From assembly GCF_004000605.1 (NCBI RefSeq), contig NZ_CP018911.1, forward strand, positions 2,647,001 to 2,711,000: a stretch of 64,000 nucleotides of DNA. Reading direction: 5' to 3'. How positions within the stretch are numbered: position 1 is the stretch's first letter; each line of letters begins with the position of its first letter. The notes below the pieces were generated by a model, which did no database searches, was not told the origin of the DNA, and worked only from the letters and a program-made list of their open reading frames with translations. Shown in pieces: positions 7,968 through 23,651 of the stretch. Position numbers and translations under genes: made by a program. Source of the DNA: Glycocaulis alkaliphilus (GTDB lineage: Bacteria; Pseudomonadota; Alphaproteobacteria; Caulobacterales; Maricaulaceae).

Positions 7968-8675
7968 TCAGACCGAAAAGCTATCTGCCGGTAGCGGCAG
8001 CACATAGCCTTTCAGCCTCTGTGTCTCGATCAGATCTTCGCCGACAACCGCGCGGATCGAACGGCGAAGGCGCGCCACCGCCACATCAATGACATTGATC
8101 TGGGGCGGCAGATTGGGAAAATCAGTCCAGACTTCCGCCCAAAGCGTGTCACGGCTGACAGGCTGGCCGGGATTGTCCGCCAGCAGCTTCAATATGTTGA
8201 ATTCCTGTGGCGAAAGCGGGATGTGAACCCCGTTCCAGTGCGCCGTGCGCGCCTTTGCCCTGACCTCCAGCCCGCCCAGCACAATGACTTCAGGATTGGC
8301 CGCAAAGCCTGCCCGCCGCGCCAGCGATTTCAGCCGCGCCCGCAGCTCGGCAGCATCAAACGGCTTGGCAAGATAATCGTCCGCACCGGCCTCCAGCCCT
8401 TCAACGCGCTGATGGGTCTGGCCCAGACTGGACAAGACCAGCGCCGGTGCCACCACGCCCATATCCCGCAAACGGGAAAGCAGTTGGAGGCCGTCCGTGC
8501 CATCGGTCTCGATCATCCGGTCGATGACCAGCACATCGACGGCGCTGGACGCCGCGCGCGCAAGTGCCTCCCTGCCGGTTGCCACGCGTTCCAGCGTCCA
8601 GTCCGGCTCGGCGCTCACCGCCTGCGTGGCCTTGTCAGCCCACACATCTTCATCCTCGACCATCAGGATCTGCAT
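7968..8675 (-). CDS. OmpR/PhoB-family response regulator
   Basis: A 235-residue cytoplasmic two-component regulator. The receiver domain occupies about residues 1-115: acidic pocket EDED near the start, phospho-acceptor Asp52 in VLVIDRM, and the conserved Lys in LAKPFD. The C-terminal winged-helix DNA-binding domain (about 130-230) includes SPQEFNILKLLADNPGQPVS and the terminal LKGYVL hairpin. The start at 8675 is chosen because MQILMVEDED is a typical receiver N-terminus and GGGGAG lies upstream. A longer frame reaching 8888 overlaps the htrA gene and looks spurious. It follows htrA on the same strand with a 40-base gap, so co-transcription is likely. No kinase gene is adjacent. The nearest is at 22248, across the caspase/CHAT block. 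Confidence 0.92.
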   Translation of the reverse strand: MQILMVEDEDVWADKATQAVSAEPDWTLERVATGREALARAASSAVDVLVIDRMIETDGTDGLQLLSRLRDMGVVAPALVLSSLGQTHQRVEGLEAGADDYLAKPFDAAELRARLKSLARRAGFAANPEVIVLGGLEVRAKARTAHWNGVHIPLSPQEFNILKLLADNPGQPVSRDTLWAEVWTDFPNLPPQINVIDVAVARLRRSIRAVVGEDLIETQRLKGYVLPLPADSFSV

Positions 8676-8715
8676 CTGGATTCTCCCCGGATCTGCCTGA
8701 TCAGCAGGCTGGTTG

Positions 8716-10170
8716 TCAGAACGGCCCGCCAGACGCATCGGCGAACGCCGCATGGTCAGGCGCATGCGCTGTCGCCCCCTCGTCCAGCGCCAGCGCAATA
8801 TAGCGGGGCACATCGTCACCGCCACGCAATACCCGCAAGGCGACCTGGCGGCGGGCAAGCATGAGGCGGACCTGAGCCTCACCAGCATCGGTTATGTCCG
8901 TCGCGCCAATCGCCAGAACGGCGTCACCCTCGCGAAGGCCCGCCTGCGCGGCCGGGCTGCCGGGCACGACCGAGGCCACCTGCACACCAGCTCCTTCGCT
9001 GGCGGCAAAGCTGATCCCGTAGCCACGGCGGCTGACAGGCTCAAAACCCAGATCGCGGCTCGCCGCCAGATCCTGATTATCCGGCCTTCTGTCCAGCCAG
9101 ACCTCCACCCGGTAGCGCGCCTGACCGTCATGCAGGCTTAGCGCCGCACGTTCGCCCGGACGCGCCAGCAAAAGCGCGCGCGCAAGATCACGCGGCGTCG
9201 ACAGATCGATCCCGTTGACCGCCAGCAGCGTCTGCCCGGCACGGATACCGGCTCCGGCAGCGGCCGAGTCAGGATCAACAGCCTCTATCAGCACGCCTTC
9301 CCCGCTCTGACGTCCCATCGCGCTGGCCAGCGGGCCATGCAGGGCGCGCACCGTCAGGCCCAGATAACCACGTTCCAGCTGTCCGCGCTCCATCAGCGTC
9401 TCGGCAACCTCCCGGGCAATGCCTGACGGAATGGCCAGCGATATGCCGACATTGAAAAACGCTTCCTGCGGAATGGCTGTATTGACCCCGACCACGCGTC
9501 CGTGACGGTCGAGCAGCGGCCCGCCGGAATTGCCGGGATTGAGCGCGGCATCGTGCTGGATATAGCCAACCGGATCGGCCCCGTCATAAGCGCGCGCAAA
9601 ACCGCCCACGACGCCGGAACTCACCGACAGGTGAAAGTCCAGGGGCGAACCCACGGCCAGAACCGGCGCACCAAGACGCAACGCGACATCATCGCCCCAC
9701 TCCAGCGCTGGCAAGTCTGCCTGCACCCGCAACAGGGCCAGATCGGTCAGCGGATCGGCGCCAATCAGTTCAGCGCCCACCCGCCGCCCATTGGCAAGGC
9801 GTGCCTCGATCCGGCGCGCGCCGGACACGACATGGAAATTGGTCAGCACATAGCCGCCCTCGGCAACCGCAAATCCGGAGCCGGAACGCCAGGACCAGCC
9901 GGTCTGGTCTTCTGCGCTATTGCGCGCGCCCTCTTCCCCGGCCTCGTTCATCACCATGACGGGCTGGCTGACCGAACGCTCGGCATACACGGTGACCACG
10001 GAGCGGATGACGGCTTCGCCGCCTTCAAACGGCGCAGAACCCGGTACTTGCGTCTCCGCTGCGGGCGCTGCTGCCTGGCCGGGCCGCCAGCCTGCGTTCA
10101 GCTGGGCAACCGCCAGCAGGGCCGCAAGGAGCGCGGAGGCGATCAGGGCGCGCGTGGTGGAATAAGGCAT
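8716..10170 (-). CDS. HtrA/DegP-type periplasmic serine protease with two PDZ domains
   Basis: A 484-residue protein with an N-terminal signal peptide or anchor (about residues 6-26), so it acts in the periplasm. The S1C protease domain has the full triad: His113 (LTNFHVV), Asp143 (DPLTDLALL) and Ser215 (NPGNSGGP). Two PDZ domains follow, one with RGYLGLTVRAL and a second near the C-terminus with VPGSPAAQAGLREGDAVLAI. The ATG at 10170 is chosen over 10185 because GGAG sits 7-8 bases upstream. It is followed by the response regulator at 8675 and is divergent from the small exported protein at 10431. HtrA proteases degrade or refold damaged envelope proteins and often feed stress signalling. 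Confidence 0.93.
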   Translation of the reverse strand: MPYSTTRALIASALLAALLAVAQLNAGWRPGQAAAPAAETQVPGSAPFEGGEAVIRSVVTVYAERSVSQPVMVMNEAGEEGARNSAEDQTGWSWRSGSGFAVAEGGYVLTNFHVVSGARRIEARLANGRRVGAELIGADPLTDLALLRVQADLPALEWGDDVALRLGAPVLAVGSPLDFHLSVSSGVVGGFARAYDGADPVGYIQHDAALNPGNSGGPLLDRHGRVVGVNTAIPQEAFFNVGISLAIPSGIAREVAETLMERGQLERGYLGLTVRALHGPLASAMGRQSGEGVLIEAVDPDSAAAGAGIRAGQTLLAVNGIDLSTPRDLARALLLARPGERAALSLHDGQARYRVEVWLDRRPDNQDLAASRDLGFEPVSRRGYGISFAASEGAGVQVASVVPGSPAAQAGLREGDAVLAIGATDITDAGEAQVRLMLARRQVALRVLRGGDDVPRYIALALDEGATAHAPDHAAFADASGGPF

Positions 10171-10430
10171 GAGAGGCTCCGGCATGTCTCAGCGCAAATC
10201 TTGGCGGCACGGCGCGCACGCAGCTACTTACAAGCCCTGTCAGAAAGCAAAGACGCGGGCAAGCGGCATTCCTGACAAAGACGGACATACTTTTTTTGGC
10301 GCTTTTCCAGCCCTGAACAGCGGGCTAGGACTGATCAAGGCAGCAGGAAAAGCGTCCCGGACCGGGCACTGTCGAACACTGAATACCTGTTGGCGAATGC
10401 GGATAAAATGTCATTACAGGAGTAAACCAA
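10171..10430. promoter_or_regulatory. Divergent promoter region, htrA / small exported protein
   Basis: 260 bases separate two divergent start codons, so promoters for both directions must lie here. The rightward gene has a clear AGGAG ribosome-binding site about 8 bases before ATG 10431. An AT-rich GGATAAAAT at about 10400 could be its -10 region, but I cannot find a matching -35 with confidence. A T-run lies near 10290. No open reading frame is evident. Confidence 0.4.
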
Positions 10431-11114
10431 ATGAAACTGTCGTCTTTGCTTGCTGCAACTGCAGCGATCGCCCTGACCGGCTCTGTCATCGCCCAGGATG
10501 CTGACGAGACCGGCACCAACTTTGCCGAGGACCAGCGCAGCGAGGAAACCACCGGCGTCGAACTGCTGGCCCTGTCGCAGGAGCTTTATGCCTACGGTGT
10601 GGATGCCCGTGACCCGCTCGCCGTCATCGTGGCAGCGCGCATCCGCCAGGGTGTGGATGTCGAGGAGCGTGAATACGAGATCGCCGAGCAGGGCGGTGAG
10701 CCTGAAGAGGCCGAGATCGAGTTCGCGTCTGCGGCCGACATGCTCGATGAAGCGCGCGTTCTGGCCCGCGGCGACGAAGCGCTTGCCGGCCTGATTGCCG
10801 AAGTGGAAGCCGATGCTGCCCGTGGCCGCGTCGGCGGACCGGGCCGCGCTTCAGGCTGGGTCGGCGCACGCAGCACCACCAGCTACAACATCACCTTCCG
10901 CGGGGGCGAACGCGCCGCCGTCTGGGCCAACGGCCCCGGCCGCACGGATCTCGACATGTATGTGTATGACAGCAACGGCAATCTGATCTGCCGCCATATC
11001 GACTATTCCGACCGCATGTCCTGCTTCTGGACGCCGCGCTGGACCGGCACCTTCACCGTCCAGGTCCGCAATCTGGGCAATGTCGGCGTCAGCTACAACA
11101 TGGTGACCAACTAG
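10431..11114 (+). CDS. Exported two-cysteine protein, paralogue of the lipoprotein at 21643-22230
   Basis: A 227-residue protein with a cleavable signal peptide (cut after about residue 21, VIA/QD). Residues 40-130 are acidic and helical. Residues about 145-227 form a beta-rich domain with FRGGERAAV, DLDMYVYD, two cysteines (187 and 198) and the end GVSYNMVTN. The beta-domain resembles bacterial pre-peptidase C-terminal-like modules, but I cannot assign a family. The lipoprotein at 21643-22230 is collinear with it: a helical part, RGR(I/V)xGP, (F)xxGxxAxV, two Cys also 11 residues apart, and a similar end PYYLITN. Good AGGAG site. The function is unknown, but its position next to the caspase operon, with its paralogue closing the block, suggests a shared role. 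Confidence 0.8.
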   Translation: MKLSSLLAATAAIALTGSVIAQDADETGTNFAEDQRSEETTGVELLALSQELYAYGVDARDPLAVIVAARIRQGVDVEEREYEIAEQGGEPEEAEIEFASAADMLDEARVLARGDEALAGLIAEVEADAARGRVGGPGRASGWVGARSTTSYNITFRGGERAAVWANGPGRTDLDMYVYDSNGNLICRHIDYSDRMSCFWTPRWTGTFTVQVRNLGNVGVSYNMVTN

Positions 11115-11166
11115 CGTCCCGGGACCTGTCCGGCCTTCCGGACGCTCCCGCCGGAAGCTGGCAGTA

Positions 11167-11214
11167 CGGACGGCGCGGCGGCCACTTGGCCGCTCGCCGT
11201 CCGCTCGCCGTTTT
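11167..11214 (+). terminator. Strong hairpin after the exported two-cysteine gene
   Basis: CGGACGGCG (11167-11175) pairs perfectly with CGCCGTCCG (11195-11203). GCGGCC/GGCCGC extends the inner stem with an ACTT loop, and a short TTTT follows at 11211-11214. It lies between the exported protein gene and the caspase operon. It is probably a terminator that separates the two transcripts, although the T-run is short and 8 bases from the stem. Confidence 0.6.
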
Positions 11215-11327
11215 GGGCATTGCGGCTGGCACATGGCTGTCGGCCTTTGTCAGAAAACACATGCTCGCGGCCAGTGCCTGCGCCGCGCTAGGGTCACGGG
11301 AACAATGCAGCAGGGGATGCAAGGCTG

Positions 11328-13658
11328 ATGCTTGGCACGGCAATACGCTTCATCACGGTTCTGGCAGGTCTGACGGCCCTTGGAGCGGCAGCTCTGGCTG
11401 ACACCCCCCAGCGCCACGCCCTGCTGATCGGGGCTTCGGGCTATGACGAGGACCGGATCGGGCCGGGCGTCGAATTGCTGGGGCCGCGCAATGATGTGGC
11501 GCTGATGATCCGTGCGCTGCGCGCCTATGACGTACCCGATGCCAACATGCTGGTACTCGCCGACGGGCTGGAGCAGACGGGCATTGATTTTACCGCCCAG
11601 GGCGATCCCAACCGCAATGAGATTCTGGCGGCGTTCGAGGCCATGCTGGAGCGCGCCCGGCCCGGCGATGAAGTTCTGGTGTATTTTTCCGGCCATGGTT
11701 CGCGCCAGCCCCAGCCAGAAGGCGCAGCTGTGCCGGAGGCCAACGGCTTTGACGAGATATTCCTGCCGCTGGATATCGGTTCCTGGGAGGGCGCTCAGGG
11801 CGACCGGCAGGCTGGCGTGCGAAATGCGTTGATCGATGATGAAATCGGCGAATTTCTCGATGCCTTGAGAGCGCGCAATATCTTCGTCTGGCTGGTGGTG
11901 GACACCTGCCATTCGGGCGGCGCGAACCGGGGCGCGGGGCCAGGCGGCGAGTTCCGCACCCGCGCCGTCACCGAGGACATGCTGGGCATTCCGCTGGAGG
12001 CCCGCACCGCCGCCGAACAGCGCGCGCAGACGACACGCTCCGGCGCAGCCTCGCCGCGCCCTGATGCCTCGATTGCACTGGGAGAAGGCGGTTTCGTGGC
12101 CTTCTACGCCGCCCATTCCGGCCAGCTCGCCCTTGAAGGGCTGATGCCCAAGGTTGGCGCAGCAGAAGCGCGTAATAATTTCGGCGTGATGACCTTCCAC
12201 ATCGCCAACGGCCTGCTGGCAGGCAGCGTCGCGAGCTATCGCGACCTCGCCTACCGGGTTCTCTCCGGATACAATGACTGGGGTAGCCGGGCGCCAGCGC
12301 CCCTGTTCGAGGGCGACCTCGACCGCGCGCTTCTGGGCCAGGGAGGCACGATGCGCTCGCCGCAATGGCATGCCCGGTTTCTGGCCCGCGACACTGCCGA
12401 GATCGAGGCCGGCTTTCTGGAAGGCGTTGGCGAAGGCGCCGTGTTCGAGATCATCGTGCGCGACCCTGACACGCAAGGCCCCCACCCCTCCTTCCCCGGC
12501 CTCTATTTCGTCGAGGCAGTGGAGGTGGGACAGACCGCAACCCGCGCCGTCCTGACCGCCTTCGAGAACAACGAGGCGGCCCGCGCCCTGCCCGGACGTA
12601 CCGCCTATATGACGGCCCGGCTGGCCGACCCCGGCGTGCGCCTGTCGCTTTCCATATCGGTGGAAGAGGTAAGCGGAGATGTGAATGCGCGCGAGCAGAC
12701 AGCCCTTGAGGCACTCGCCCGGCTGGCACAGGCCAACCCGGAAACGCTGATCGCGCCGATAGATTTCCGTGATCCCGGCGAGCCTGCCGACGTGCGTATC
12801 CGCGTGCAGGATGACGCCATCTGGCTATTGCGCGGCGAGCCCGACATCATCGCGACTGGCCGCGAGCGCTCCGCGCATATCGCTATTGACGACACATCAA
12901 CCGCCGATGCGCTGATGAGCCAGATTGAGGGTGAACTGCGGAAGCTGGCCCGGGTGCGCAACATCCTCAATGCCGCCAGCGCGCTGCAGGGAGCTAACGG
13001 GCTGGAAAACCTGCGCCATGAGGCCTTCGTCTGGCGGGCCACCCCGCCGCGCCTGACCGCCAGTGCCCGTGCGGCCGATGACTGGGCCTGCTCCCTGCCC
13101 GACCCGTCCGCCATTCCAGCCAGTGCCGTTTCATTTGAAGAGCTCGGCACCAGCGATCTCAACGCGCTGGATCTTGGCCATTGCGACATCATCTATATCC
13201 GCCTGACCAATACGGGCAGCCGGGCAATCGACGTCACCCCGCTCTATATCGACAGCCAGGCGGGCATTCACCGCCTGCCCTTTCTCGGCGCCAGCACGTC
13301 CACCCGCATCGAGCCGGGAGAGCAGCCGCGCATCGTCTGGGCCGGGCTTCGCACGTTCGACTGGACGAGCGGCTATCCGGCAAGTGCGGGCCTGGAACGG
13401 CTTGTCCTGCTGGCGGTGGAGCGCGAGCCGGACGCGGCGATCCCGATGGATTTCAGCTTCCTGACACAAGCCAGCCTCAGCCGGTCCGCCGATGCCGCCA
13501 TGAACGATGCACAGCGTTCCCCGCTCGGCCAGCTGATGAGCATGGCCGCCTTTGGCGGCGCTGCTACCCGCAGCGCGCGCGCACGCCCGGCTCTCGATGC
13601 GCAGGCCGGTACCATACTGTTCCAGTGGCGGCTGATCCCGCCGGGCGGGGGGGAGTAG
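11328..13658 (+). CDS. Exported caspase-family cysteine peptidase (C14)
   Basis: A 776-residue protein with a Sec signal peptide (cut near residue 24, ALA/D). The caspase domain spans about residues 28-300. It starts with HALLIGASGYD, has the catalytic His123 in YFSGHGS and catalytic Cys194 in VVDTCHSGG, and retains a GFDEIFLPLD strand, so the enzyme should be active. Residues 370-776 are a long extension of unknown fold with beta-rich segments such as GHCDIIYIRLTNTGSRAIDV. Prokaryotic caspases are usually Arg/Lys-specific, and most studied ones are cytoplasmic. Export places this one in the periplasm or outside. It is the first gene of an operon with the TPR protein (4-base gap) and CHAT protease downstream. 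The ribosome-binding site is weak (AAGG close to ATG). Confidence 0.92.
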   Translation: MLGTAIRFITVLAGLTALGAAALADTPQRHALLIGASGYDEDRIGPGVELLGPRNDVALMIRALRAYDVPDANMLVLADGLEQTGIDFTAQGDPNRNEILAAFEAMLERARPGDEVLVYFSGHGSRQPQPEGAAVPEANGFDEIFLPLDIGSWEGAQGDRQAGVRNALIDDEIGEFLDALRARNIFVWLVVDTCHSGGANRGAGPGGEFRTRAVTEDMLGIPLEARTAAEQRAQTTRSGAASPRPDASIALGEGGFVAFYAAHSGQLALEGLMPKVGAAEARNNFGVMTFHIANGLLAGSVASYRDLAYRVLSGYNDWGSRAPAPLFEGDLDRALLGQGGTMRSPQWHARFLARDTAEIEAGFLEGVGEGAVFEIIVRDPDTQGPHPSFPGLYFVEAVEVGQTATRAVLTAFENNEAARALPGRTAYMTARLADPGVRLSLSISVEEVSGDVNAREQTALEALARLAQANPETLIAPIDFRDPGEPADVRIRVQDDAIWLLRGEPDIIATGRERSAHIAIDDTSTADALMSQIEGELRKLARVRNILNAASALQGANGLENLRHEAFVWRATPPRLTASARAADDWACSLPDPSAIPASAVSFEELGTSDLNALDLGHCDIIYIRLTNTGSRAIDVTPLYIDSQAGIHRLPFLGASTSTRIEPGEQPRIVWAGLRTFDWTSGYPASAGLERLVLLAVEREPDAAIPMDFSFLTQASLSRSADAAMNDAQRSPLGQLMSMAAFGGAATRSARARPALDAQAGTILFQWRLIPPGGGE

Positions 13659-13662
13659 GGTG

Positions 13663-14826
13663 ATGTGGAGCGTTTTCGTGCTGGCAACAGCTCTCGGCTC
13701 ACAGACGCCCGACCCGTACGCGGCTCTGGACGGGGACGCTGCTGCCATTTGCGCGAATGCCGAGCGCGCGATGGAGGCGGGCCGTCACAACGAGGCCGCC
13801 GCCGGGTTCCAGATGTGTGAACAGGCCACGCGTCGCGGGCTCGATCTGGAGCGCGGCGAACTGTGGGCCTTGCAGGCACATATCAGCCGCCGTCTTGCTG
13901 CGGCCCGTCAGGCTGATGGCGATGCAACCGGTGCAGCCAACGCAACCTATATGGCCGACCGGTACGAACAGCTGATGGGCCAGCTGGCCGATCTGACCCG
14001 GCAGTCGCAGGCGCGTACCCTGTTCCAGGAAGGCCGTTATGCCGAGGCCGAAGCCATCTCCCTCGTCCTTCTGGCCGAAGCAGAAGCCGGCGAACATCGG
14101 GTAGGGGCGGTCCACGACCGGCTTTACTCGCTGGCGAGCGCCCTCCTGCCCCAGGGGCGCGCGGAAGAGGCGATACCGCTGCTTGAACGCGCCGTTGACG
14201 AGGCCAGGCGCAGCGGGGAAGGCGGCGAGCCGGAAGTCTATCTGAACATGCTGGCAGAAGCCTATTTCGACACCGCACGTTTTTCGGAAAGCGCGGCCAT
14301 CCTGCGCGATCTCTATGACAGGTCAGGCGGGGCTGCGCGGTCCACCTATGGCAATAATCTCGCCCGGGCGCTGGATGGGGCGGGCCTGCATGCAGAGGCC
14401 GAAGCCCTGCTGCGCAGCGCGGTATCCGATGCCCGTGCCGACGATGGCGGCGTGGCCTCCAACCCGCACAGGCTGGCGCGCGTGCTCTTCAATCTTGCCC
14501 GCAATCTCGCCGCTCAAGGCCGGCATGAGGATGCCGCCAGCCTGTTTGCCGAGTCCGCCGCGCTGACCGTGCAGCGCCGCCCGGCGGGTCATACCGACAT
14601 CATCGCCGCCCATACCTGGCTGGTGGGCCACACACTCGCCAACACGCACGATGCGCAGACCGCCCTGAGCGGCGCACGCATACTCAGCGCCAATCTCGAC
14701 CGGTATCTCGCCTCAGGCGGGGAGGACGCAGACCGCCAGCGCGCCATCCAGAACGCCGGTGAGCCGCAAGCGCTCTTTACGCTCCACACAGAAGCGGCCT
14801 GGGCCGCTGCCCATAATGAAGGGTAA
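13663..14826 (+). CDS. Exported TPR-repeat protein
   Basis: A 387-residue protein (388 if the GTG at 13660 is used). It has a short hydrophobic start, probably a signal peptide cut near residue 15-18. It then consists of helical repeats of TPR type (for example AMEAGRHNEAAAGFQ, LFQEGRYAEAEAISL, ALLPQGRAEEAIPLLERAV, LARALDGAGLHAEAEALL and NLAAQGRHEDAASLF). TPRs bind partner proteins. It starts 4 bases after the caspase stop behind a GGGGGGGAG site, and is followed directly by the CHAT protease gene. The order TPR protein then CHAT protein reproduces, as two chains, the domain order of the single TPR-CHAT protein at 18709-21633. A role as substrate or partner receptor for the CHAT or caspase enzyme is inference. 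Confidence 0.85.
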   Translation: MWSVFVLATALGSQTPDPYAALDGDAAAICANAERAMEAGRHNEAAAGFQMCEQATRRGLDLERGELWALQAHISRRLAAARQADGDATGAANATYMADRYEQLMGQLADLTRQSQARTLFQEGRYAEAEAISLVLLAEAEAGEHRVGAVHDRLYSLASALLPQGRAEEAIPLLERAVDEARRSGEGGEPEVYLNMLAEAYFDTARFSESAAILRDLYDRSGGAARSTYGNNLARALDGAGLHAEAEALLRSAVSDARADDGGVASNPHRLARVLFNLARNLAAQGRHEDAASLFAESAALTVQRRPAGHTDIIAAHTWLVGHTLANTHDAQTALSGARILSANLDRYLASGGEDADRQRAIQNAGEPQALFTLHTEAAWAAAHNEG

Positions 14827-14830
14827 CACC

Positions 14831-16594
14831 ATGCACACCCGCAATATTGCGTGCCTTGCGCGCACCCTGCTGGTCTCCACCTGCCTTGCTGGCGCGGCCT
14901 TCACGGGCAGCAGCTTCGCGCAAGGCTCGCAAGCCTGCCCGGAAGGCTCGATGGAGTACGCCTGCCTGCGCGCGGAAGGATATTGGGCGGCGCAATGGGC
15001 GATCCAGACCTCTGCCGCCCGCGCCCTGTCACAGGTCGGGGCCCGCTTTGCCTCCGGTGACGACGCGCTGGGTCTGCTTGTCGCCGAGCGCCGCCGTATG
15101 GCGGACCAGCGCAACGCCGCCGAACGTGCCCTCTATGAAGCCCTTGCCATTACCGACCCGGCTTCGCGTGAGGAGGCCACGGCCACGGCGCGCAGCGCGC
15201 TGGATACCGCCTCTGCCCGCCTTGGCGAAATCGACGCCACATTGTCGCGCGACTTTCCCGAGTACGCCCAGCTCACCAGCCCCCAGCCGCTATCGGTCGA
15301 GGCGACGCAGGCCCTGCTGCGCGCTGACGAGGCCCTCATCCTGATCCTCGCCGGTGACCGCTCCACCTTCGTCTTTGCGATTGACCGGGACGGCATTGAC
15401 TGGGCGCGCGTAGAGGTGACGGCGGCCGAGCTTGGCGAGGCGGTGGACCTGTTGCGTCAGGGCGTCGATCTCGATCACGGGCGCGGCCCCTGGAACGCGG
15501 TCGCAGTACAGTCCAGCAGCGCGACCGCAGGCCTGCCCGTGTTCGACCGGCAGGCCGCCTTCCAGCTCTACCAGCAGCTTCTGGCGCCAATCGAAGCGCG
15601 CCTTGAGGGCAAGGCGCATGTCTATGCCATCCCCTCCGGCGCGCTTTCCAGCCTGCCGCTCGCCTTGCTGGTCACAGAGCCGCCATCAGGCGCAGACAGC
15701 GACGTGGACGCGCTGCGCCAGACCGCCTGGCTGGGACGGCGCTATGCCATGACAGTACTGCCCTCACCGGCTTCCCTGCGCTCGCTGACACGGTTTGGCG
15801 CAAGCCGCGCCTCTGCGCCCTTCCTTGGCGTCGGTGATCCCTGCATTGGCGCGCGCGCCGGTGCTGGCTGCGAGCGCGCACCGGCAAGTTCCGGCCCGCA
15901 GCAGCGCGGCGGCGGCACACGCGGCGTGTTCAATGCCAGCGCGTCCACAGACGGCGTATTTCTGGCTGATGTCGAGGCGGTGCGTGCCTTGAGCGCCCTG
16001 CCCAATACACGCCCCGAACTCATCGCGCTGGCAGAAGCCTTTGGCGCGCAACCGAGCCAGGATCTGCTGGTCGGCGATGGAGCAACCGAAGCCAATCTGC
16101 GCAGCACGGTCGACCTGTCGAACCGGCAGGTCATCGCCTTTGCCACGCACGGCCTGATCGCTGATGAGCTGCCGGGCCTGACCGAGCCGGCTCTGGTTCT
16201 CACCCCGCCTGCACAGGCCAGCGAGGGCGATGACGGTCTGCTGACGGCTTCCGAAATCGCGCGTGACCTGACGCTGGATGCCGACTGGGTGATCCTCTCG
16301 GCCTGCAACACGGCAGCACCGGGCGGCGCAGGCGCGGATAGCCTGTCAGGCCTTGCCAGCGCCTTCTTCTATGCCGGCGCGCGGGCCCTGCTGGTCTCGC
16401 ACTGGGTTGTCGATGACGCCGCCGCGCGGCGCATCACCACCGGCACACTCTCGGCGATGAACGCCGATCCGTCGGCAGGGCGCGCAGAGGCGCTGCGTCA
16501 GTCCATGCTATCCATGATGGATGACCCGCAATTTGCCCATCCGGCGATGTGGGCGCCCTTCGTGCTGGTCGGGCAGAACCGCCCCGCGGAGTGA
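14831..16594 (+). CDS. Exported CHAT-domain cysteine protease
   Basis: A 587-residue protein with a signal peptide (hydrophobic LLVSTCLAGAAF, likely cut after SSFA). Residues about 45-150 are helical, and the C-terminal half is a CHAT domain (caspase HetF associated with TPRs). Catalytic His440 is in FATHG and Cys492 in LSACNT. Also typical are the LPGLTEPALVLTPP, GLLTASEI and FYAGARALLVSHW segments. The ATG at 14831 has AAGGG 7 bases upstream. An ATG at 14816 would overlap the TPR gene. It is the third gene of the caspase operon. CHAT peptidases are cut-site-specific relatives of caspases, and in other systems TPR units regulate them. A palindromic repeat lies just beyond the stop codon. Confidence 0.92.
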   Translation: MHTRNIACLARTLLVSTCLAGAAFTGSSFAQGSQACPEGSMEYACLRAEGYWAAQWAIQTSAARALSQVGARFASGDDALGLLVAERRRMADQRNAAERALYEALAITDPASREEATATARSALDTASARLGEIDATLSRDFPEYAQLTSPQPLSVEATQALLRADEALILILAGDRSTFVFAIDRDGIDWARVEVTAAELGEAVDLLRQGVDLDHGRGPWNAVAVQSSSATAGLPVFDRQAAFQLYQQLLAPIEARLEGKAHVYAIPSGALSSLPLALLVTEPPSGADSDVDALRQTAWLGRRYAMTVLPSPASLRSLTRFGASRASAPFLGVGDPCIGARAGAGCERAPASSGPQQRGGGTRGVFNASASTDGVFLADVEAVRALSALPNTRPELIALAEAFGAQPSQDLLVGDGATEANLRSTVDLSNRQVIAFATHGLIADELPGLTEPALVLTPPAQASEGDDGLLTASEIARDLTLDADWVILSACNTAAPGGAGADSLSGLASAFFYAGARALLVSHWVVDDAAARRITTGTLSAMNADPSAGRAEALRQSMLSMMDDPQFAHPAMWAPFVLVGQNRPAE

Positions 16595-16623
16595 TGGGGA
16601 CCTGGAAAGCGCCTGCTTGTTGT

Positions 16624-16769
16624 CTCCCCCCGTTTACTGGCGGGGTGAGAAGCGAAGCTTCGAACGCCCGAAGGGCCGAGGGGGGGATTTTGAAAAGAAA
16701 AGTTTCCCCCCTCCGTCAGCTGCGCTGCCGTTCGTCGCTCCGCGCCTCACCCCGCCGTGAACGGGGGAG
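16624..16769. repeat. Long palindromic GC-rich repeat, copy 1
   Basis: About 146 bases between convergent genes. The outer arms are CTCCCCCCGTTTAC at the left and GTGAACGGGGGAG at the right. The inner part contains GAACGCCCGAAGGGCC, then GAGGGGGGA, a short AT-rich loop of about 15-20 bases, and CCCCCCTC, so the whole could fold into one long hairpin. A related copy lies at 27614-27734 with the same order of blocks. No reading frame is credible inside. It looks like a non-autonomous dispersed intergenic element, and no flanking duplication was identified. Confidence 0.7.
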
Positions 16770-16795
16770 GACATCCCGCCACCAAACCCCTGCCG

Positions 16796-18520
16796 TCAGC
16801 CTCCCGTCAGCCGGGCGATCAGCTGGCGGACATCATCCAGCCGGCCGGCAATCGCCGTTCCTGACAGGGCCGCAGCACTCTGCAGCAACTCCATCGGTTC
16901 GCCATCACCGCCGCGGCGCAGGGCGGTGATGGAGTATTTGAACACGTCCGGCTCGCAATGGCCCCCGGTTTGCGGGGCCACCGCGTAGAACTGTCCCAGC
17001 TCACCTGTATTGGTGTGCAGGATGCAGCGCTCTTCCGGGCTCAAGGACAGCCATATCAGCGCCCGGAAATCGTCCATGGCAGGGCCGGCATAGTCCGAAT
17101 GGCCAAGCCCGCGCCCGCCTGCCGCTGTGGTGTCCACCGTGCTGAGGCCCGCAACCACAACCGGGTAGGGCGGGCTGGAATCGCCAGCGCGCGCATTGCC
17201 GCCATTGATCCGGCGCGACAGCAGCAGGGCGCGGTCACGGCTGGAGGCATACAGCGTCATGCCGCTGGCCAGATGATCGATGCGCGGCAGCAGGTCCATG
17301 AACTCCTCAGCATCCACGTCCGGCGAGGCCCATACGACCTGATCAAAGAGCGGTTCGGGCGGGTTGGGATAGGTCTCGGCCAGCTGATCAAGGGCGCGCG
17401 CCAGAAAGCGGTTGCCCATCGAATGCGCGACGATATGGATGCGGTCCGCATTCGCGCCATTCATGAGCAGGTAGAGATAGTCCACAAGATCGCGGATATT
17501 GGCGTCATTCACCTCGCGCCCGTCGGCAAGATAGCCCAGCAATGACGCCCGCGACGGCCAGGAATAGAGCGCTGGCACCCCGTCAATCTCCAGATCGACT
17601 GCGAGCTGCGCCGCACGCTCCGCCGCGCCGCGAAAGTCTGAATTGAAGCCATGAATGAAGACGAGCAGCTCGCGCCGCTCTGATGCATCCATCGCCGTGC
17701 CGAGCGCGCGGGTGAAGGCATAATCGTCAGCAAAGGGCTCCACGCGTTCAAGGATGAAATAGTCTGCCCGGTACTGGTCCAGATCACCGGGATAATCACG
17801 CCGGCGCGGGATCGAGCCGACCTCGCGATTGCGCGGCACCGAGACGGTGACCACGCCCAGATCCAGCGGCGCTGCCGTCACACCGTAGAAGGCGTTGGGG
17901 TCCTCAGACCCCGTACGCACCCGGTTGGTCCCGTAGAACACCGGCACGATTACATGGTCTGCATCGGCGCCCGCGCCGGGATCGCGCGTCAATGCCTCCT
18001 CGTCCTCGCGGGCAATGCGCGCGCGCAGGACGGCGAGTTCAGCCTGCGCGCCTTCAAGGCTGTGCGCTGTGCCCGCCCCGGACGCCGCCGTCTCGACAGA
18101 CAAGGCTGTCTCCATCAGGTAGAGAAAATCGCGCGCCCGCACGGCGCCGGCCTCCTCCAGCACCGCATAGGCTTCATCGAGAATTTCGCGCGCCCGGTCG
18201 AACCGGCCCTGCGCCATCTCCAGCCTTGCCTCGTTGATCAGCCCATGCGCCCACGCGCCTTCAACCCTGTCGGCAGAGGCAATCAGCGTACGCGCCGTTT
18301 CGTAGGCACTGCGTGCGCGCGCGGTATCCCCGCACTCCGCCTGCCAGTCCGCAAGGTCAAAATAAAGCGCGACCTGCTCTGAAAGCTCCAGCTCCAGCGC
18401 CGCCAGATCGAGCGCCTCGACACGCTCCGGATCGACCTCACAGCCCTGCCCGAGCGCGGCGCCATGCCATGTCAGCATGGCCGCACCGGCACACATCACC
18501 GCCAGTATTCTCATCTGCAC
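16796..18520 (-). CDS. Exported alpha/beta hydrolase (DUF900-type esterase)
   Basis: A 574-residue protein with a signal peptide (hydrophobic 4-22, cut near ALG/Q). Residues 25-140 are helical with TPR-like patterns (ARSAYETARTLI, GRFDRAREILDEAYAVLEEA). The C-terminal two thirds is a DUF900-like alpha/beta hydrolase: VFYGTNR entry motif, LLVFIHGFNSDF oxyanion region, nucleophile Ser367 in IVAHSMGN, Asp in WASPDVD and a candidate His in GLGHSDY. The start is GTG 18520 (GGGG 6 bases upstream) or ATG 18514. It is transcribed against the CHAT operon and divergently from the TPR-CHAT gene at 18709. The substrate is unknown (lipid, ester or acyl-protein). Export and position suggest it belongs to the caspase/CHAT block. 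Confidence 0.85.
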   Translation of the reverse strand: MQMRILAVMCAGAAMLTWHGAALGQGCEVDPERVEALDLAALELELSEQVALYFDLADWQAECGDTARARSAYETARTLIASADRVEGAWAHGLINEARLEMAQGRFDRAREILDEAYAVLEEAGAVRARDFLYLMETALSVETAASGAGTAHSLEGAQAELAVLRARIAREDEEALTRDPGAGADADHVIVPVFYGTNRVRTGSEDPNAFYGVTAAPLDLGVVTVSVPRNREVGSIPRRRDYPGDLDQYRADYFILERVEPFADDYAFTRALGTAMDASERRELLVFIHGFNSDFRGAAERAAQLAVDLEIDGVPALYSWPSRASLLGYLADGREVNDANIRDLVDYLYLLMNGANADRIHIVAHSMGNRFLARALDQLAETYPNPPEPLFDQVVWASPDVDAEEFMDLLPRIDHLASGMTLYASSRDRALLLSRRINGGNARAGDSSPPYPVVVAGLSTVDTTAAGGRGLGHSDYAGPAMDDFRALIWLSLSPEERCILHTNTGELGQFYAVAPQTGGHCEPDVFKYSITALRRGGDGEPMELLQSAAALSGTAIAGRLDDVRQLIARLTGG

Positions 18521-18708
18521 CGATTACCCCGTTTTCAGAGCAAGCCTTGCCCGTGAGAAAGTCTTAGGCAGGAAATACGGGCTGTCGAGCAACATGCATA
18601 AAGCCTGTCTGTCTTTGTCAGGCTGGAGGCAAGGCAAGTATTTGCCAGCTGGCGCGTGCCACGCAATCATGGGCAGGCTGCGGGTGCGCTAGGGGGAGGT
18701 ACCGGCTT

Positions 18709-21633
18709 ATGGCATGTCATCATTTCATGATCTGGGCACTGGGACTTGTCCTGCTGGCCGCACCCGGCCTTCAGGCACAGGAGACGCCGCCACCGCTTGC
18801 CCCATCGATTGTCCAGGCTGATGCGCGCGCCCTGATTGAGGCCGCGGAAGCCATCGACATGGAGGAGGATCCTGCCGGGGCCCGCGCCGCATGGCAAAGC
18901 GCCTACGACACGGTTCTCACGCTTGAAGGCGTGGCGCAGACCGACCGTGCCGCCATCCTCAACCAGCTTGGCTCAGCGATCTTCTATGCTGGCGGGCGCG
19001 AGGAAGCGCTTGGCCTCTTCCGCGAGGCCGCCAGCGTTTTCGAGGCCGCCGGCCCGGACTATCTCGAGCCTCTGGAGCAGGCGCTTGGCAATGTCGCCTC
19101 CATCCTTGGCACGCTGGGCCGGCTGGACGAAGCTGAAGCGGCCACCCGCGACGTGCTCGCCATCCGCCAGCAGCTCTACCCGGAAGATCATGTCCAGATC
19201 GCCCGCTCCTATTTTGAACTGGGCTCGATACTGAATGCGCGTGGCGAGCTGAACGATGCCATCGCGCTGGTCGAGCGTTCGCTGCGCATCCGCGAGACAG
19301 TGCTGGAGGAGGGCCATCCCCATATTGCGATGACGCAGGTGAGTCTGGCGGCGATCCTGATACGCGCCTACCGCTTTGCCGACGCCGCCGAGCTGTCACG
19401 CCGCGCCGCAGAACAGCTCGAGGCCAGCCTGCCGCCCGGCCACCCCTTTATCGGGTTCGCCCGCTCCAGCTATGCCGGCGCGCTCAATGCGTGGGGCCGC
19501 TACGAGGCGGCTGAGCCCTTGCTGCGCCGTATTCTGGAAGACCGGCGCGCCAGCCTTGGCGACGCACACCCGCAAGTCGCCGACACGCTCAATAATCTCG
19601 GCGTGGCGCTGTTCGGACAGGGCCGTTCGGCGGAAGCCCGGCCATTATTCCTGACGGCGCGCGACATTTACCGCAATGCGGCAGGTGCTGAGTCCGTCGA
19701 GGCGGCCCGCATGCAAATGAATGCCGCCGATACGGCGTTTGCGCTGGGCCAGTATGATGATGCCCGCACGGAATGGCTGGACGTGCTGGGCGTGTTCGAT
19801 GCCACAGGGACGGCAGGCCCGGACCGGATCAGGGTACTGGCCGAGCTGGCGGCCCTTGAGGCGCTGGACGGCAATCCGGCGCAGGGCCGGGACTATATCG
19901 CCAATGCGCGGATGCTGGCCGCCGCCTATCTGCCCGAAGGCCATGATCGCCGCCATGAGCTGGCGATCGACGAGGCATGGATTTCGGCCATGGATGGCGG
20001 CACCTTGCAGGTTGTGCCACAGGAAGTGCATGCCGCCATGACGGCCCTCTCCGGCAACCTGGATCTGGCAGATGTCGACAGCGCGCGGGACATGGCCCGC
20101 ACCCGCCAGCGCGCCTTCCGCCGCGCCCTCGACATCGCCTTCGCCGCTGGCGATACTCAAACTGCCTTGCGCTACATGCAGATGGTACACGCCACAGGGC
20201 TCGCTCTCGCCGCAGAGGCAACAGCCCTGAGGGTCAGCAGCGGCGGCGCGCAAACAGCAGACCTTGTCCGCGCCCGGCAGGACAGCTGGCGCGCCCTGCG
20301 TCTGGCCGAGGAAAACTATGTCCGCGTCCGCTCTGCCAGCGCATCACCCGACCCGCAGACACTCGCCGCCGCCCGCGACGCCTACGAGATGGCGCGGACA
20401 GCCATGAGCGGACTGTCACCGGACGGCAATCGCGCCCAAGGGCTGGAGACGCTCACCCTCGAAACCGTGCAACAAATGCTCGGTGCGGGAGAACACATCA
20501 TCGCCTTCGCCTTCACACCCGCTGGCGGGGTCAGCCTGCGTATCGGGCAATCGGACCTGGTAATGGACCGGCTGGCGATTGACCGCGATGCAGCACAATC
20601 AGCACTGGCCATTTTGCGCCCGGCACTGGAGGCTGGCGCCGCAGCCGGGGTGGCCCGGCCATTCCCGGCGGACGAGGCTCACCGTCTCTATGCGGGCGTT
20701 TTCACCCCCCGTCTGACACACGGGCTGGAAGAGGAGGCCGCGCTGTTCGTTCTGGCTGATGGCCCCTACCGTTCCATCCCCTTCCCGGTATTGCTGACCG
20801 GAGAGCCGTCCCGGCCGTTGGACAGCGAGGCGGCCTATGCCGGCGCGCCCTGGCTGATCGCGCGCCATGCGGTGACCACGCTGGCCACCCTTTCTGTGCT
20901 GCGCCAGCGCAATGACGGGCCGGGCAGCGCCGAGCCCTATCTGATCGGCTTCGGGGCTCCGGTCTTCTCCGGTGACACCGGGGCAGAGCCTGTCACGCTG
21001 GCGGCGCTGACGCGCAGCGCAAGCGAAGAAAGCGGCCGGGCTCTGTCCTCCCTTGCACCGCTCCCCGGCGCGCGTGCGGAGCTGGAAGAACTCGCCCGGC
21101 TCTTTGGCGAAGACCGGGCAGACATAAGGCTGGGCGTCTGGGCCACGGAGACGGCCGTCAAATCCGCCGACCTTAACCGCGCCAGCGTTCTGGTGTTCGC
21201 CACTCACGGCCTGTTGCCCGGTGAGCTGGAGACGGTGCTGGAGCCTGCCCTCGCCTTCACGCCGCCCGCACAGCCCGACGCGCTTGATGACGGCCTGCTC
21301 ACCGCGTCTGAAATTGCCGGCCTGCGGCTGGATGCGGACTGGGTCGTGCTGTCGGCCTGTAACACCTTCACCGCTGACGGCACCGCCACGGCCCCGGACC
21401 GGCTCGCGCAAGCCTTCCTCTATGCCGGCGCGCGCAGCCTGCTGGTGTCCCACTGGACGGTGCGCGACGACGCGGCAGCCTACCTTACTGCCCAGACCAC
21501 CAGGCGGGCACTGGCAGGTGAGGCAAGGCCGCAAGCCTTTCGCGGCGCCATGCTGGAACTGATGCGCAACGAGGCGATACCCGGCAGCGCCCATCCAGGC
21601 GTCTGGGGCCCCTTCGCCCTGATAGGCCGGTAA
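18709..21633 (+). CDS. Exported TPR-CHAT fusion protease
   Basis: A 974-residue protein with a signal peptide (hydrophobic core about residues 6-20, cut near LQA/Q). Residues about 40-420 are TPR repeats of the kinesin-light-chain/CHAT type (ALGNVASILGTLGRLDEAEAA, and SYFELGSILNARGELNDAIA with LRIRETVLEEGHPHIA). A helical linker follows (about 450-580), then a CHAT domain with catalytic His833 (FATHGLLPGE) and Cys884 (LSACNTF). It has a strong GGGGGAGGT ribosome-binding site. Its domain order equals that of the separate TPR and CHAT genes at 13663-16594. The C-terminal regions share runs such as DDGLLTASEIA and FYAGAR/LYAGAR. It probably cleaves or senses envelope proteins; the substrate is unknown. 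Confidence 0.92.
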   Translation: MACHHFMIWALGLVLLAAPGLQAQETPPPLAPSIVQADARALIEAAEAIDMEEDPAGARAAWQSAYDTVLTLEGVAQTDRAAILNQLGSAIFYAGGREEALGLFREAASVFEAAGPDYLEPLEQALGNVASILGTLGRLDEAEAATRDVLAIRQQLYPEDHVQIARSYFELGSILNARGELNDAIALVERSLRIRETVLEEGHPHIAMTQVSLAAILIRAYRFADAAELSRRAAEQLEASLPPGHPFIGFARSSYAGALNAWGRYEAAEPLLRRILEDRRASLGDAHPQVADTLNNLGVALFGQGRSAEARPLFLTARDIYRNAAGAESVEAARMQMNAADTAFALGQYDDARTEWLDVLGVFDATGTAGPDRIRVLAELAALEALDGNPAQGRDYIANARMLAAAYLPEGHDRRHELAIDEAWISAMDGGTLQVVPQEVHAAMTALSGNLDLADVDSARDMARTRQRAFRRALDIAFAAGDTQTALRYMQMVHATGLALAAEATALRVSSGGAQTADLVRARQDSWRALRLAEENYVRVRSASASPDPQTLAAARDAYEMARTAMSGLSPDGNRAQGLETLTLETVQQMLGAGEHIIAFAFTPAGGVSLRIGQSDLVMDRLAIDRDAAQSALAILRPALEAGAAAGVARPFPADEAHRLYAGVFTPRLTHGLEEEAALFVLADGPYRSIPFPVLLTGEPSRPLDSEAAYAGAPWLIARHAVTTLATLSVLRQRNDGPGSAEPYLIGFGAPVFSGDTGAEPVTLAALTRSASEESGRALSSLAPLPGARAELEELARLFGEDRADIRLGVWATETAVKSADLNRASVLVFATHGLLPGELETVLEPALAFTPPAQPDALDDGLLTASEIAGLRLDADWVVLSACNTFTADGTATAPDRLAQAFLYAGARSLLVSHWTVRDDAAAYLTAQTTRRALAGEARPQAFRGAMLELMRNEAIPGSAHPGVWGPFALIGR

Positions 21634-21642
21634 CCGGCGATG

Positions 21643-22230
21643 TCAGTTGGTGATCAGGTAATAGGGGATTTGCGCGCCCGTGAGGTTGACCACCTCAATG
21701 GTGAACGGCTCCGACCATACCGGCACCCACTGGCAACTGACCGGAGCGGTGGTGGCAAGCGCCTCGCAGACAGGTTCGCCATCATGACGCCGGATCGACA
21801 GGCGCAGCGTGCCGCTTCCACGTGCCTGCAGCGAAACGCGTGCAGCGCGGCCAGAATGAAAACTGTCGCGCAACAGGGCCGTCTCCCCGGCTCCCACAAT
21901 GCCATTGCGATAGGCAGGGCCGGCAATGCGCCCGCGCGAAGGCGGCACAGTTTCGCCGAGCTCGGCGGCTCTGGCCTGCCAGCGTGCGGCCAGGTCAGCT
22001 TCGCCTTCAGCGGGACGCGCGCCGCTGGCCTCCAGCAGGCTCGCCGCCGCCAGCAATGCTGCGCCATCACCTGCCGCTTCGGCGCGCAAGCCAATGTCGA
22101 GCGCAGCGAATATCTGGCCATCAGGCTCGGCAACGGCAGGCAGGGCCGATACAGCCTGCTGCGACGCACAGCCCGTCATGACCACCGGAAAAACAACGGC
22201 CATCGCAAGGGCACAAAGGCGCTGGTGCAT
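21643..22230 (-). CDS. Lipoprotein paralogue of the exported protein at 10431
   Basis: A 195-residue lipoprotein: MHQRLC start, hydrophobic core, and lipobox VMTGC with acylated Cys21. The mature part has a helical stretch (45-100) and a beta-rich C-terminal domain with Cys155 and Cys166, ending PYYLITN. It parallels the protein at 10431-11114 along its length, with the same 11-residue Cys spacing and the same ending pattern. The start at 22230 is chosen over 22263 because it begins the signal peptide and follows AGAGGGG. It is convergent with the TPR-CHAT gene (9-base gap). Its start codon lies only about 17 bases from the divergent histidine kinase start, so the promoters overlap or lie inside coding sequence. 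Confidence 0.8.
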   Translation of the reverse strand: MHQRLCALAMAVVFPVVMTGCASQQAVSALPAVAEPDGQIFAALDIGLRAEAAGDGAALLAAASLLEASGARPAEGEADLAARWQARAAELGETVPPSRGRIAGPAYRNGIVGAGETALLRDSFHSGRAARVSLQARGSGTLRLSIRRHDGEPVCEALATTAPVSCQWVPVWSEPFTIEVVNLTGAQIPYYLITN

Positions 22231-22247
22231 CGGGGAGCCCCTCTTCC

Positions 22248-23651
22248 ATGATCCCGGACCCAACCTTAGACCAATCCCGCGCGGGGCGGAAAGGTTCGCG
22301 CTTGCGCATTCTGCGTTCCAGCTTCGCGCGCCTGGCCGCCATGATTGCGGCCCTCGTCAGCTTCGCCGCGACAGCCGTCTTCCTGATTGCCTACTTCGCC
22401 TTCGCTTTTGTATCCGACCAGACCCTGCGCCAGCTGGTCGATACCGACGCGGCAGGCCTGGTGGACATATATTCCATCGAGGGCGAGGCCGGTCTGCAGC
22501 GCTCCTTGCAGGACCGGCTGGCCTTCCGGCCGCTGGAAGGCGAAGGCCCGGTCTATCTGCTGGCGGACCCGCAAGGCAGTCCGCTCGTGGGCAATCTGAC
22601 CCACTGGCCGGACGCGTTTTCCCTTGATGCCAGCTGGGTGAACGGCACCTTCACGGTGGACGGCGAGGCCTTGCCGCTGATCGGGCGCGCCTTCCTGATG
22701 CCGCAGGACTACCGGCTGTTCGTCGGGCGATCCACCACCAGCCAGGCCGAGGCGCTCGCCCGCCTGCGCACGATCTTTACCGCCGGCTTCTTCATCACCA
22801 TGACCCTTGGCATTGCCGCTGGCCTGGTCGCGGCCGGCTGGATCATGCAGAGAGTGGAGCAGCTGAACCGCACCTGCCATGCGGTGCGTGACGGGGCCAT
22901 CGACCAGCGTGCGCCTGGAGCCGAAGGCGCCGATGAGTTCGGCGTGCTTTCGCGCAATATCAACGCCATGCTGGACCGGATTGAGCGCCTTATCAGCGCA
23001 CAGCGTGACGTGTCTGACCTGACCGCACACGAACTGCGCACCCCTCTGGTGCGCATCGACCGCACACTGGCAGACGCCGCAAGCGATCCTGAGCGTATCG
23101 AGCAGGCGCGCGAACAGCTCGCCGAGCTGGGCGAGCTCATCAACTCGCTCATGGATATTTCTGCGATCAGCGCCGAGATCGGCGACACGCGCGGTCTGGA
23201 AACGCTCGACCTTGCCGCCCTCGCCCGTTCGGTCACCCCGCTATACAATGACGTTGCCAGCGAAAAGGGCGCCAGCGTGAAGGTGGAAGCCGGCGCGCCT
23301 GTGATGATGCGCGGCAGCCCCGCCCAGCTGGGCCGCCTGATCGCCAACCTCGTCGATAATGCGGTGAAATTCCTGCCCGAAGGCGGGGAGGTGAAAGTGA
23401 TTGTCCGCGCCGGGCCTGTACTGATCGTGGAGGATAACGGCCCCGGCGTGCCGCCAGACTGGCGTGAGCGCGTATTCATGCGTTTCGCCCGTATCAGCCA
23501 TGGCGGCCCGCGCGGTCATGGTCTAGGCCTGTCCTTCGTCCATGCCGTGGCCCGCCGCCACGGCCTCACCGTCGATGTGGAGGATGCCAGGCCGGGATCG
23601 GCCCGGCCCGGCGCCCGCTTCATCGTCCGCAGGGCCGGGGCCACACCTTGA
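22248..23651 (+). CDS. Membrane sensor histidine kinase
   Basis: A 467-residue two-component kinase. Membrane segment 1 is at about residues 29-55, a periplasmic sensor spans about 56-172, and membrane segment 2 is at about 178-200. HAMP follows (about 197-250). HisKA contains the phospho-acceptor His261 in LTAHELRTPL. HATPase_c has the N-box NLVDNAVKFL, VEDNGPGVP and HGLGLSFV. No response regulator is adjacent. The OmpR-type regulator at 7968-8675 is the nearest candidate. The stop codon overlaps the start of the downstream transporter (TGATG). Its position at the edge of the exported-protease block suggests it could sense envelope state or proteolysis products, which is inference. Confidence 0.92.
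   Translation: MIPDPTLDQSRAGRKGSRLRILRSSFARLAAMIAALVSFAATAVFLIAYFAFAFVSDQTLRQLVDTDAAGLVDIYSIEGEAGLQRSLQDRLAFRPLEGEGPVYLLADPQGSPLVGNLTHWPDAFSLDASWVNGTFTVDGEALPLIGRAFLMPQDYRLFVGRSTTSQAEALARLRTIFTAGFFITMTLGIAAGLVAAGWIMQRVEQLNRTCHAVRDGAIDQRAPGAEGADEFGVLSRNINAMLDRIERLISAQRDVSDLTAHELRTPLVRIDRTLADAASDPERIEQAREQLAELGELINSLMDISAISAEIGDTRGLETLDLAALARSVTPLYNDVASEKGASVKVEAGAPVMMRGSPAQLGRLIANLVDNAVKFLPEGGEVKVIVRAGPVLIVEDNGPGVPPDWRERVFMRFARISHGGPRGHGLGLSFVHAVARRHGLTVDVEDARPGSARPGARFIVRRAGATP

Follow-up and report, generated by a model that had tools for sequence, protein, structure and literature searches.

The Cpx system of E. coli (CpxA-CpxR-CpxP-DegP) combines a membrane kinase, an OmpR-type regulator and an HtrA/DegP-family protease with a small periplasmic protein encoded next to the kinase or the regulator. 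That protein, CpxP, inhibits CpxA in the periplasm; it cooperates with DegP, which has been proposed to degrade it (PMC4160245). Bacterial metacaspases, or orthocaspases, are built on a p20 fold with a catalytic His, a Cys within the DxCHSG motif and acidic S1-type residues, and orthocaspases are reported to cleave after basic residues (PMC6426788). CHAT proteases are exemplified by the TPR-CHAT subunit of Craspase and by the gasdermin-tied enzymes, which use a His/Cys dyad; the Asp that reads a P1 Arg in separase corresponds to Lys in Craspase (PMC9729208). Finally, pre-peptidase C-terminal (PPC) domains are jelly-roll β domains attached to proteases. The locus described here has features of all four, in an order that the first-pass annotation could not match to any described system; we likewise found no exported caspase-CHAT unit and no such gene order in the open literature searched, from which subscription papers and preprints are largely absent.

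The locus was recognized in the window, a 64,000-nucleotide stretch of the Glycocaulis alkaliphilus genome. As kept in relatives, the unit consists of ten genes (7968-23651), with a response regulator and HtrA at one end and a histidine kinase at the other. The minus strand encodes an OmpR-family response regulator (RR; 7968..8675; Pfam Response_reg and Trans_reg_C) and an HtrA/DegP-family periplasmic protease with a signal peptide (8716..10185; Trypsin_2 and two PDZ domains; degP_htrA_DO, 1.8e-96), for which an ATG at 10167 is another possible start. Four genes follow on the plus strand: secreted PPC1 (10431..11114), which alignments, an AlphaFold model and Foldseek resolve into a helical N-domain and a PPC-fold β domain; an exported metacaspase-like caspase (CASP; 11328..13658; His123/Cys194; Peptidase_C14, 4.8e-13); a secreted TPR protein (13663..14826; Pfam TPR); and the exported CHAT protease CHAT1 (14816..16594; CHAT, 2.6e-50), whose dyad His440/Cys492 is numbered from the ATG at 14831, the start being either 14816 or 14831. 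The remainder comprises an exported DUF900 α/β hydrolase (ABH; 16796..18514, minus strand; 3.7e-41), an exported TPR-CHAT protease (18709..21633, plus strand; His833/Cys884; Pfam TPR and CHAT, 1.5e-45), the lipoprotein-like PPC-fold protein PPC2 (21643..22230, minus strand; lipobox-like VMTGC) and, divergent from it, the membrane sensor histidine kinase (HK; 22248..23651, plus strand; HAMP, HisKA and HATPase_c). PPC1 and PPC2, homologous to each other, are the two proteins noted earlier for their pair of cysteines. The first-pass annotation had drawn a five-gene block from the caspase to TPR-CHAT, within a range (10431-22230) that covers PPC1 and PPC2 as well. These five lie where it placed them, carry the Pfam domains it named and have intact catalytic residues, but it missed the RR, HtrA and HK that bracket them, together with the deeper core described below.

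Compared with Cpx, the unit has a kinase and an OmpR-family regulator, adjacent in six relative loci (L071, L072, L090, L122, L236 and L238) and split in Glycocaulis, where HK and its presumed partner RR occupy opposite ends. The htrA gene adjoins that of RR, with shared candidate operators upstream. A CpxP/Spy-type inhibitor was not found among the unit's proteins; PPC1 and PPC2 have the PPC fold and resemble CpxP in gene position only, PPC2 adjoining HK-RR in L071, L072 and L090 too. The unit further differs from Cpx in its additional exported caspase, CHAT proteases and hydrolase, and in a candidate operator based on TGACA. Relative to known metacaspases, CASP appears to be exported, has a C-terminal half that is long and matches nothing in Pfam, recurs with PPC proteins and belongs to a unit that has a two-component system of its own. 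The CHAT proteins share the TPR-CHAT architecture and the His/Cys dyad with Craspase and the gasdermin-tied enzymes, whereas the unit's proteins have signal-peptide-like N-termini; no Cas7-11/gRAMP, crRNA or Csx30, and no other CRISPR or gasdermin gene, is present at 7968-23651. The PPC proteins are encoded next to proteases rather than attached to them, and add a helical N-domain and a conserved cysteine pair to the jelly roll.

The catalytic residues and export signals of the unit are retained across orthologs. His123/Cys194 of CASP and His440/Cys492 of CHAT1 are invariant in their alignments. All aligned orthologs likewise share the TPR-CHAT dyad, His833/Cys884, and the hydrolase's nucleophilic Ser, and the His and Ser of HtrA are conserved. 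Eight proteins are presumed to be exported: their N-termini are signal-peptide-like by a crude hydrophobicity and AxA rule, used in place of SignalP, and the orthologs differ in sequence here but keep a hydrophobic stretch and an AxA-like site, in keeping with the signal peptides first proposed. That of the TPR protein is short and has no basic n-region. CASP can be assigned further. Profile searches against the PDB return metacaspases (best 7e-21), and the p20 fold, the His and the Cys in DxCHSG are those of a metacaspase or orthocaspase; its structure model (pLDDT 62) is too weak for a fold search. Asp56, Ser121 and Asp192 (D/S/D) are invariant S1-type residues, which by position match those of the acidic S1 pocket that receives Arg or Lys in TbMCA2. 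CHAT1 contains a CHAT domain above cut-off (PF12770) with its dyad, and has an invariant Asp529 in WxVxD that may, as a lead only, correspond to the separase Asp that reads P1. Searches of PDB sequences with CHAT1 and the C-terminal part of TPR-CHAT found no relatives.

The unit behaves as a discrete block. Five of the six genomes of the genus (the window's own, G001 or Glycocaulis albus, G002, G003 and G005) share one gene order, and only the number of TPR genes differs among them, from zero to two. The same set recurs in another genus (G223) at 45-69% identity, with three TPR genes and unrelated flanks, and RR is kept at the unit end there as in G001, G002, G003 and G005. The predicted co-occurrence and conserved order are thus borne out in relatives, whose genes were called with our own codon-usage caller. 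The most variable part is TPR, with zero to three copies across relatives, which makes the proposed TPR sensor the weakest element of the original scheme. In the sixth genome of the genus (G004), neither caspase nor CHAT gave a match, and at the empty site PBP1C, A2M, a TonB receptor and ChrA adjoin one another. This indicates that the unit was gained or lost as a discrete block, with A2M and PBP1C as its flanks. In the window, a bacterial α-2-macroglobulin (A2M; 1634 aa; 2949-7853, minus strand) and PBP1C adjoin the unit as a pair (892-7853, minus strand); both were rejected as members in Glycocaulis, being present at the empty site and having no motif. In another Maricaulaceae locus (L122), the same pair (12647-19590) is found at the opposite side of the unit, after CHAT1. 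A YadA-like adhesin and a TonB receptor were rejected as partners, because they lie near some copies only; YadA-like trimeric autotransporter head repeats occur at 61454-64000 (minus strand), cut by the window end, and YadA-like genes lie near the PPC2/TPR-CHAT loci of G006 and G008. A cut copy is found in G237, where CHAT1 is a 309-aa fragment beside a transposase-like gene (L089:13262-15633) and caspase and TPR are absent from the 20-kb locus; intact copies exist elsewhere.

The unit's promoters share a candidate operator. An alignment of the promoters of htrA/PPC1, the caspase and the hydrolase/TPR-CHAT pair yields CTGACAAAGnCnGACAG, which, with at most one mismatch, occurs at only three sites in the 3.02-Mb genome, all at unit promoters, against 0.19 expected from base composition. 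These putative direct-repeat operators are CTGACAAAGACGGACAT (10272..10288, plus strand; one mismatch), CTGACAAAGGCCGACAG (11237..11253, minus strand; no mismatches), 75 bp before the caspase start, and CTGACAAAGACAGACAG (18605..18621, minus strand; no mismatches), between ABH and TPR-CHAT. At up to three mismatches, the window contains ten matches versus 1.3 expected. The motif was derived from these very sites, so the independent weight comes from relatives: across six carrier loci, 15 of the 16 sites with up to two mismatches lie before unit genes, the control giving one match in 319 kb, and the operators at 11237..11253 and 18605..18621 are conserved in G001, G003 and G005. A second, inverted-type candidate operator, CTTACAAGCCCTGTCAG (10227..10243, plus strand), lies in the htrA/PPC1 promoter and is kept there as TGACAAGnCnnGTCA in RR-bearing carriers, the distant loci L236 and L238 included. 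Neither motif was found in a caspase-CHAT locus without RR (L121), nor at the promoters of the G006, G008 and G186 loci, where RR is strongly diverged. The absence of the motif where RR is absent or diverged points to this RR as the binder, and from this co-occurrence and the repeat geometry we infer that RR binds the candidate operators. Other two-mismatch sites in the genome lie mostly inside genes, and no similar protease unit was recognized at them. HK and PPC2 have no shared motif site. Their starts are head to head, 17 bp apart (22230-22248), as in G001 and G003, so the promoters of both must overlap coding sequence. By their sequence features, the ten genes look like one regulon, and the sites common to unit promoters argue against independent regulation.

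Beyond the genus and its neighbours, a smaller set persists. Two genomes of another family of the class (G814 and G834) have HK-RR-HtrA divergent to PPC-caspase, with the inverted operator and no CHAT within the 19-kb loci, and L122 has HK-RR-HtrA divergent to PPC-PPC-caspase-CHAT1, again with the inverted operator. Gene content thus suggests a deep conserved core in which HK-RR-HtrA is joined by PPC and caspase and not by TPR or hydrolase; some carriers have no CHAT, TPR or hydrolase, so those parts may do something separate. Other combinations are PPC, PPC, caspase, PPC and TPR-CHAT beside an HK (G428), PPC, CHAT and caspase together in Ahrensia (L139), HK, RR, PPC2 and TPR-CHAT in G006, G008 and G186, and PPC1-CHAT1 in the f3/g21 genomes. 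Three PPC N-domain proteins accompany a caspase and CHAT in G558, which its kinship label places in another class. In an even sample of the class (289 genomes), PPC proteins occur in four genomes, all four with CHAT and all four with PPC beside caspase or CHAT, and CHAT is present in 26 of 36 genomes with CASP versus 33 of 253 others (odds ratio 17, p 4e-13, uncorrected for kinship and genome size). Unit-linked sequences were the source of the PPC and CHAT profiles, a choice that may favour unit-like matches; the scans themselves were blind to location. CHAT alone was rejected as a marker of the system, many CHAT genes, for example in Bradyrhizobium, lying outside any such unit. A Xanthobacter caspase-CHAT1 locus (L126:14264-17704) also encodes a trypsin-domain protein and a second caspase.

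In the PPC proteins, a signal peptide precedes a helical domain and then a β domain. PPC1 and PPC2 have no Pfam match by sequence; the AlphaFold model of PPC1 (mean pLDDT 71) matches PPC and collagen-binding jelly rolls in Foldseek (5sv5, 3jqw and 3afg), placing the jelly-roll fold at about residues 136-227 of the predicted structure. Cys187 and Cys198 of PPC1 occupy adjacent strands, an arrangement expected of a periplasmic disulfide. Between the two domains, after helix 116-129 and before the strand at 138, lies Arg131-Gly132 (10821..10826, plus strand), aligned with Arg99-Gly100 of PPC2 (21931..21936, minus strand). The junction residue is Arg or Lys in 32 of 34 non-redundant PPC proteins and is followed by Gly in 30 of 34, which makes Arg/Lys-Gly a place where the metacaspase-like caspase may cut. 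The two exceptions are a truncated short protein (L198) and L242 of G058 (9670-10425), in which a long proline-rich stretch replaces Arg-Gly; G058 has no CHAT match, and this single case fits a role in cleavage. Conservation of Arg-Gly could also reflect folding, and PPC proteins keep the junction with no caspase found adjacent in G006, G008, G186 and the g21 genomes. G834 and G814 each have a second, stand-alone PPC gene (L235:9423-10133 and L237:9438-10148); the G834 promoter has two TTTGTCA half-sites, and G814 has one of these in altered form. In G558 (L241:2417-10722), where caspase and CHAT are neighbours, the three PPC N-domain proteins stop shortly past the conserved basic residue; the locus also has an FtsZ-like gene (16868-18073).

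The best reading of this evidence, to which we give an even chance, is a discrete two-component cell-envelope regulon whose exported proteases process the PPC proteins. The membrane HK (22248) would signal to the OmpR-type RR (7968), which would bind the TGACA repeats before htrA/PPC1, the caspase and ABH/TPR-CHAT and switch on an exported set made of HtrA, the metacaspase-like caspase, two CHAT proteases with a TPR helper, the hydrolase and the small PPC proteins. In the periplasm or at the surface, the caspase, and probably CHAT too, would cut PPC at Arg/Lys-Gly between the helical and β domains. The cut proteins may then release or engage HK, or act on the envelope, in a manner comparable to CpxP/CpxA/DegP in the E. 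coli Cpx system; the purpose of the unit would apparently be the sensing or repair of cell-envelope damage. The sequence evidence gives good support to export, co-regulation and co-inheritance. PPC cleavage, feedback on the kinase and the trigger are steps that we infer, and it is the Cpx-like layout that suggests the PPC proteins as proteolytic switch or effectors. A bolder claim, which we hold only tentatively, is that caspase-type cleavage, after a basic residue, of dedicated two-domain PPC proteins in the envelope is the input to the sensor kinase. This would be a new form of extracytoplasmic signalling by limited metacaspase proteolysis outside the cytoplasm, with a caspase-PPC core conserved in Alphaproteobacteria and in one or more further classes of the phylum.

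It is unlikely that the unit is an envelope-stress regulon whose proteases do general clean-up in the manner of HtrA, with the PPC proteins as substrate adaptors or chaperones that are not cut as signals. HtrA does belong to the same presumed regulon, PPC-fold domains are known in secreted proteases (among them the Foldseek matches) and CpxP has been proposed as a DegP adaptor (PMC4160245), but an adaptor would not need the near-invariant Arg/Lys-Gly junction. A true cascade of the kind first proposed, in which caspase or HtrA activates CHAT1 or TPR-CHAT by cutting, leading to lysis or attack on neighbours, is less probable still. Three caspase-fold proteases with intact dyads are indeed encoded together, and the TPR-CHAT of type III-E CRISPR stays inactive until triggered (PMC9729208). 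Against this, the deep core of G814 and G834 includes caspase and PPC but no CHAT in the 19-kb loci, and no toxin, pore-former or immunity gene was recognized within the unit. The latter result and the HtrA/two-component context favour envelope stress over lysis or competition, so that of the roles first proposed for an extracytoplasmic protease set, the envelope-stress one is retained. An anti-phage or inter-bacterial defence island is very improbable: presence or absence at a fixed site and the truncated G237 copy by a transposase gene resemble a gain-and-loss cassette, and caspases and CHAT are known in defence, but PADLOC recognizes the caspase only by its generic caspase model and otherwise gives matches that are weak or generic (BovA 4e-4, SduA 1e-3 and, for HtrA only, RT-Protease_XI), the effectors look exported, and to our knowledge control by a two-component system with HtrA is unlike known defence loci.

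A two-component envelope regulon of exported proteases and PPC proteins would bear on a wider problem, since bacterial metacaspases and CHAT proteases are common and mostly have no known substrates. The PPC family tracks these proteases across distant bacteria. What the unit supplies, in a harmless marine bacterium, is a genetic module with clear limits, a regulator and operator that may be private to it, and a family of small proteins bearing a conserved candidate cut site; with these, experiments can address directly the old question of the targets of bacterial caspases and the purpose of cutting them.
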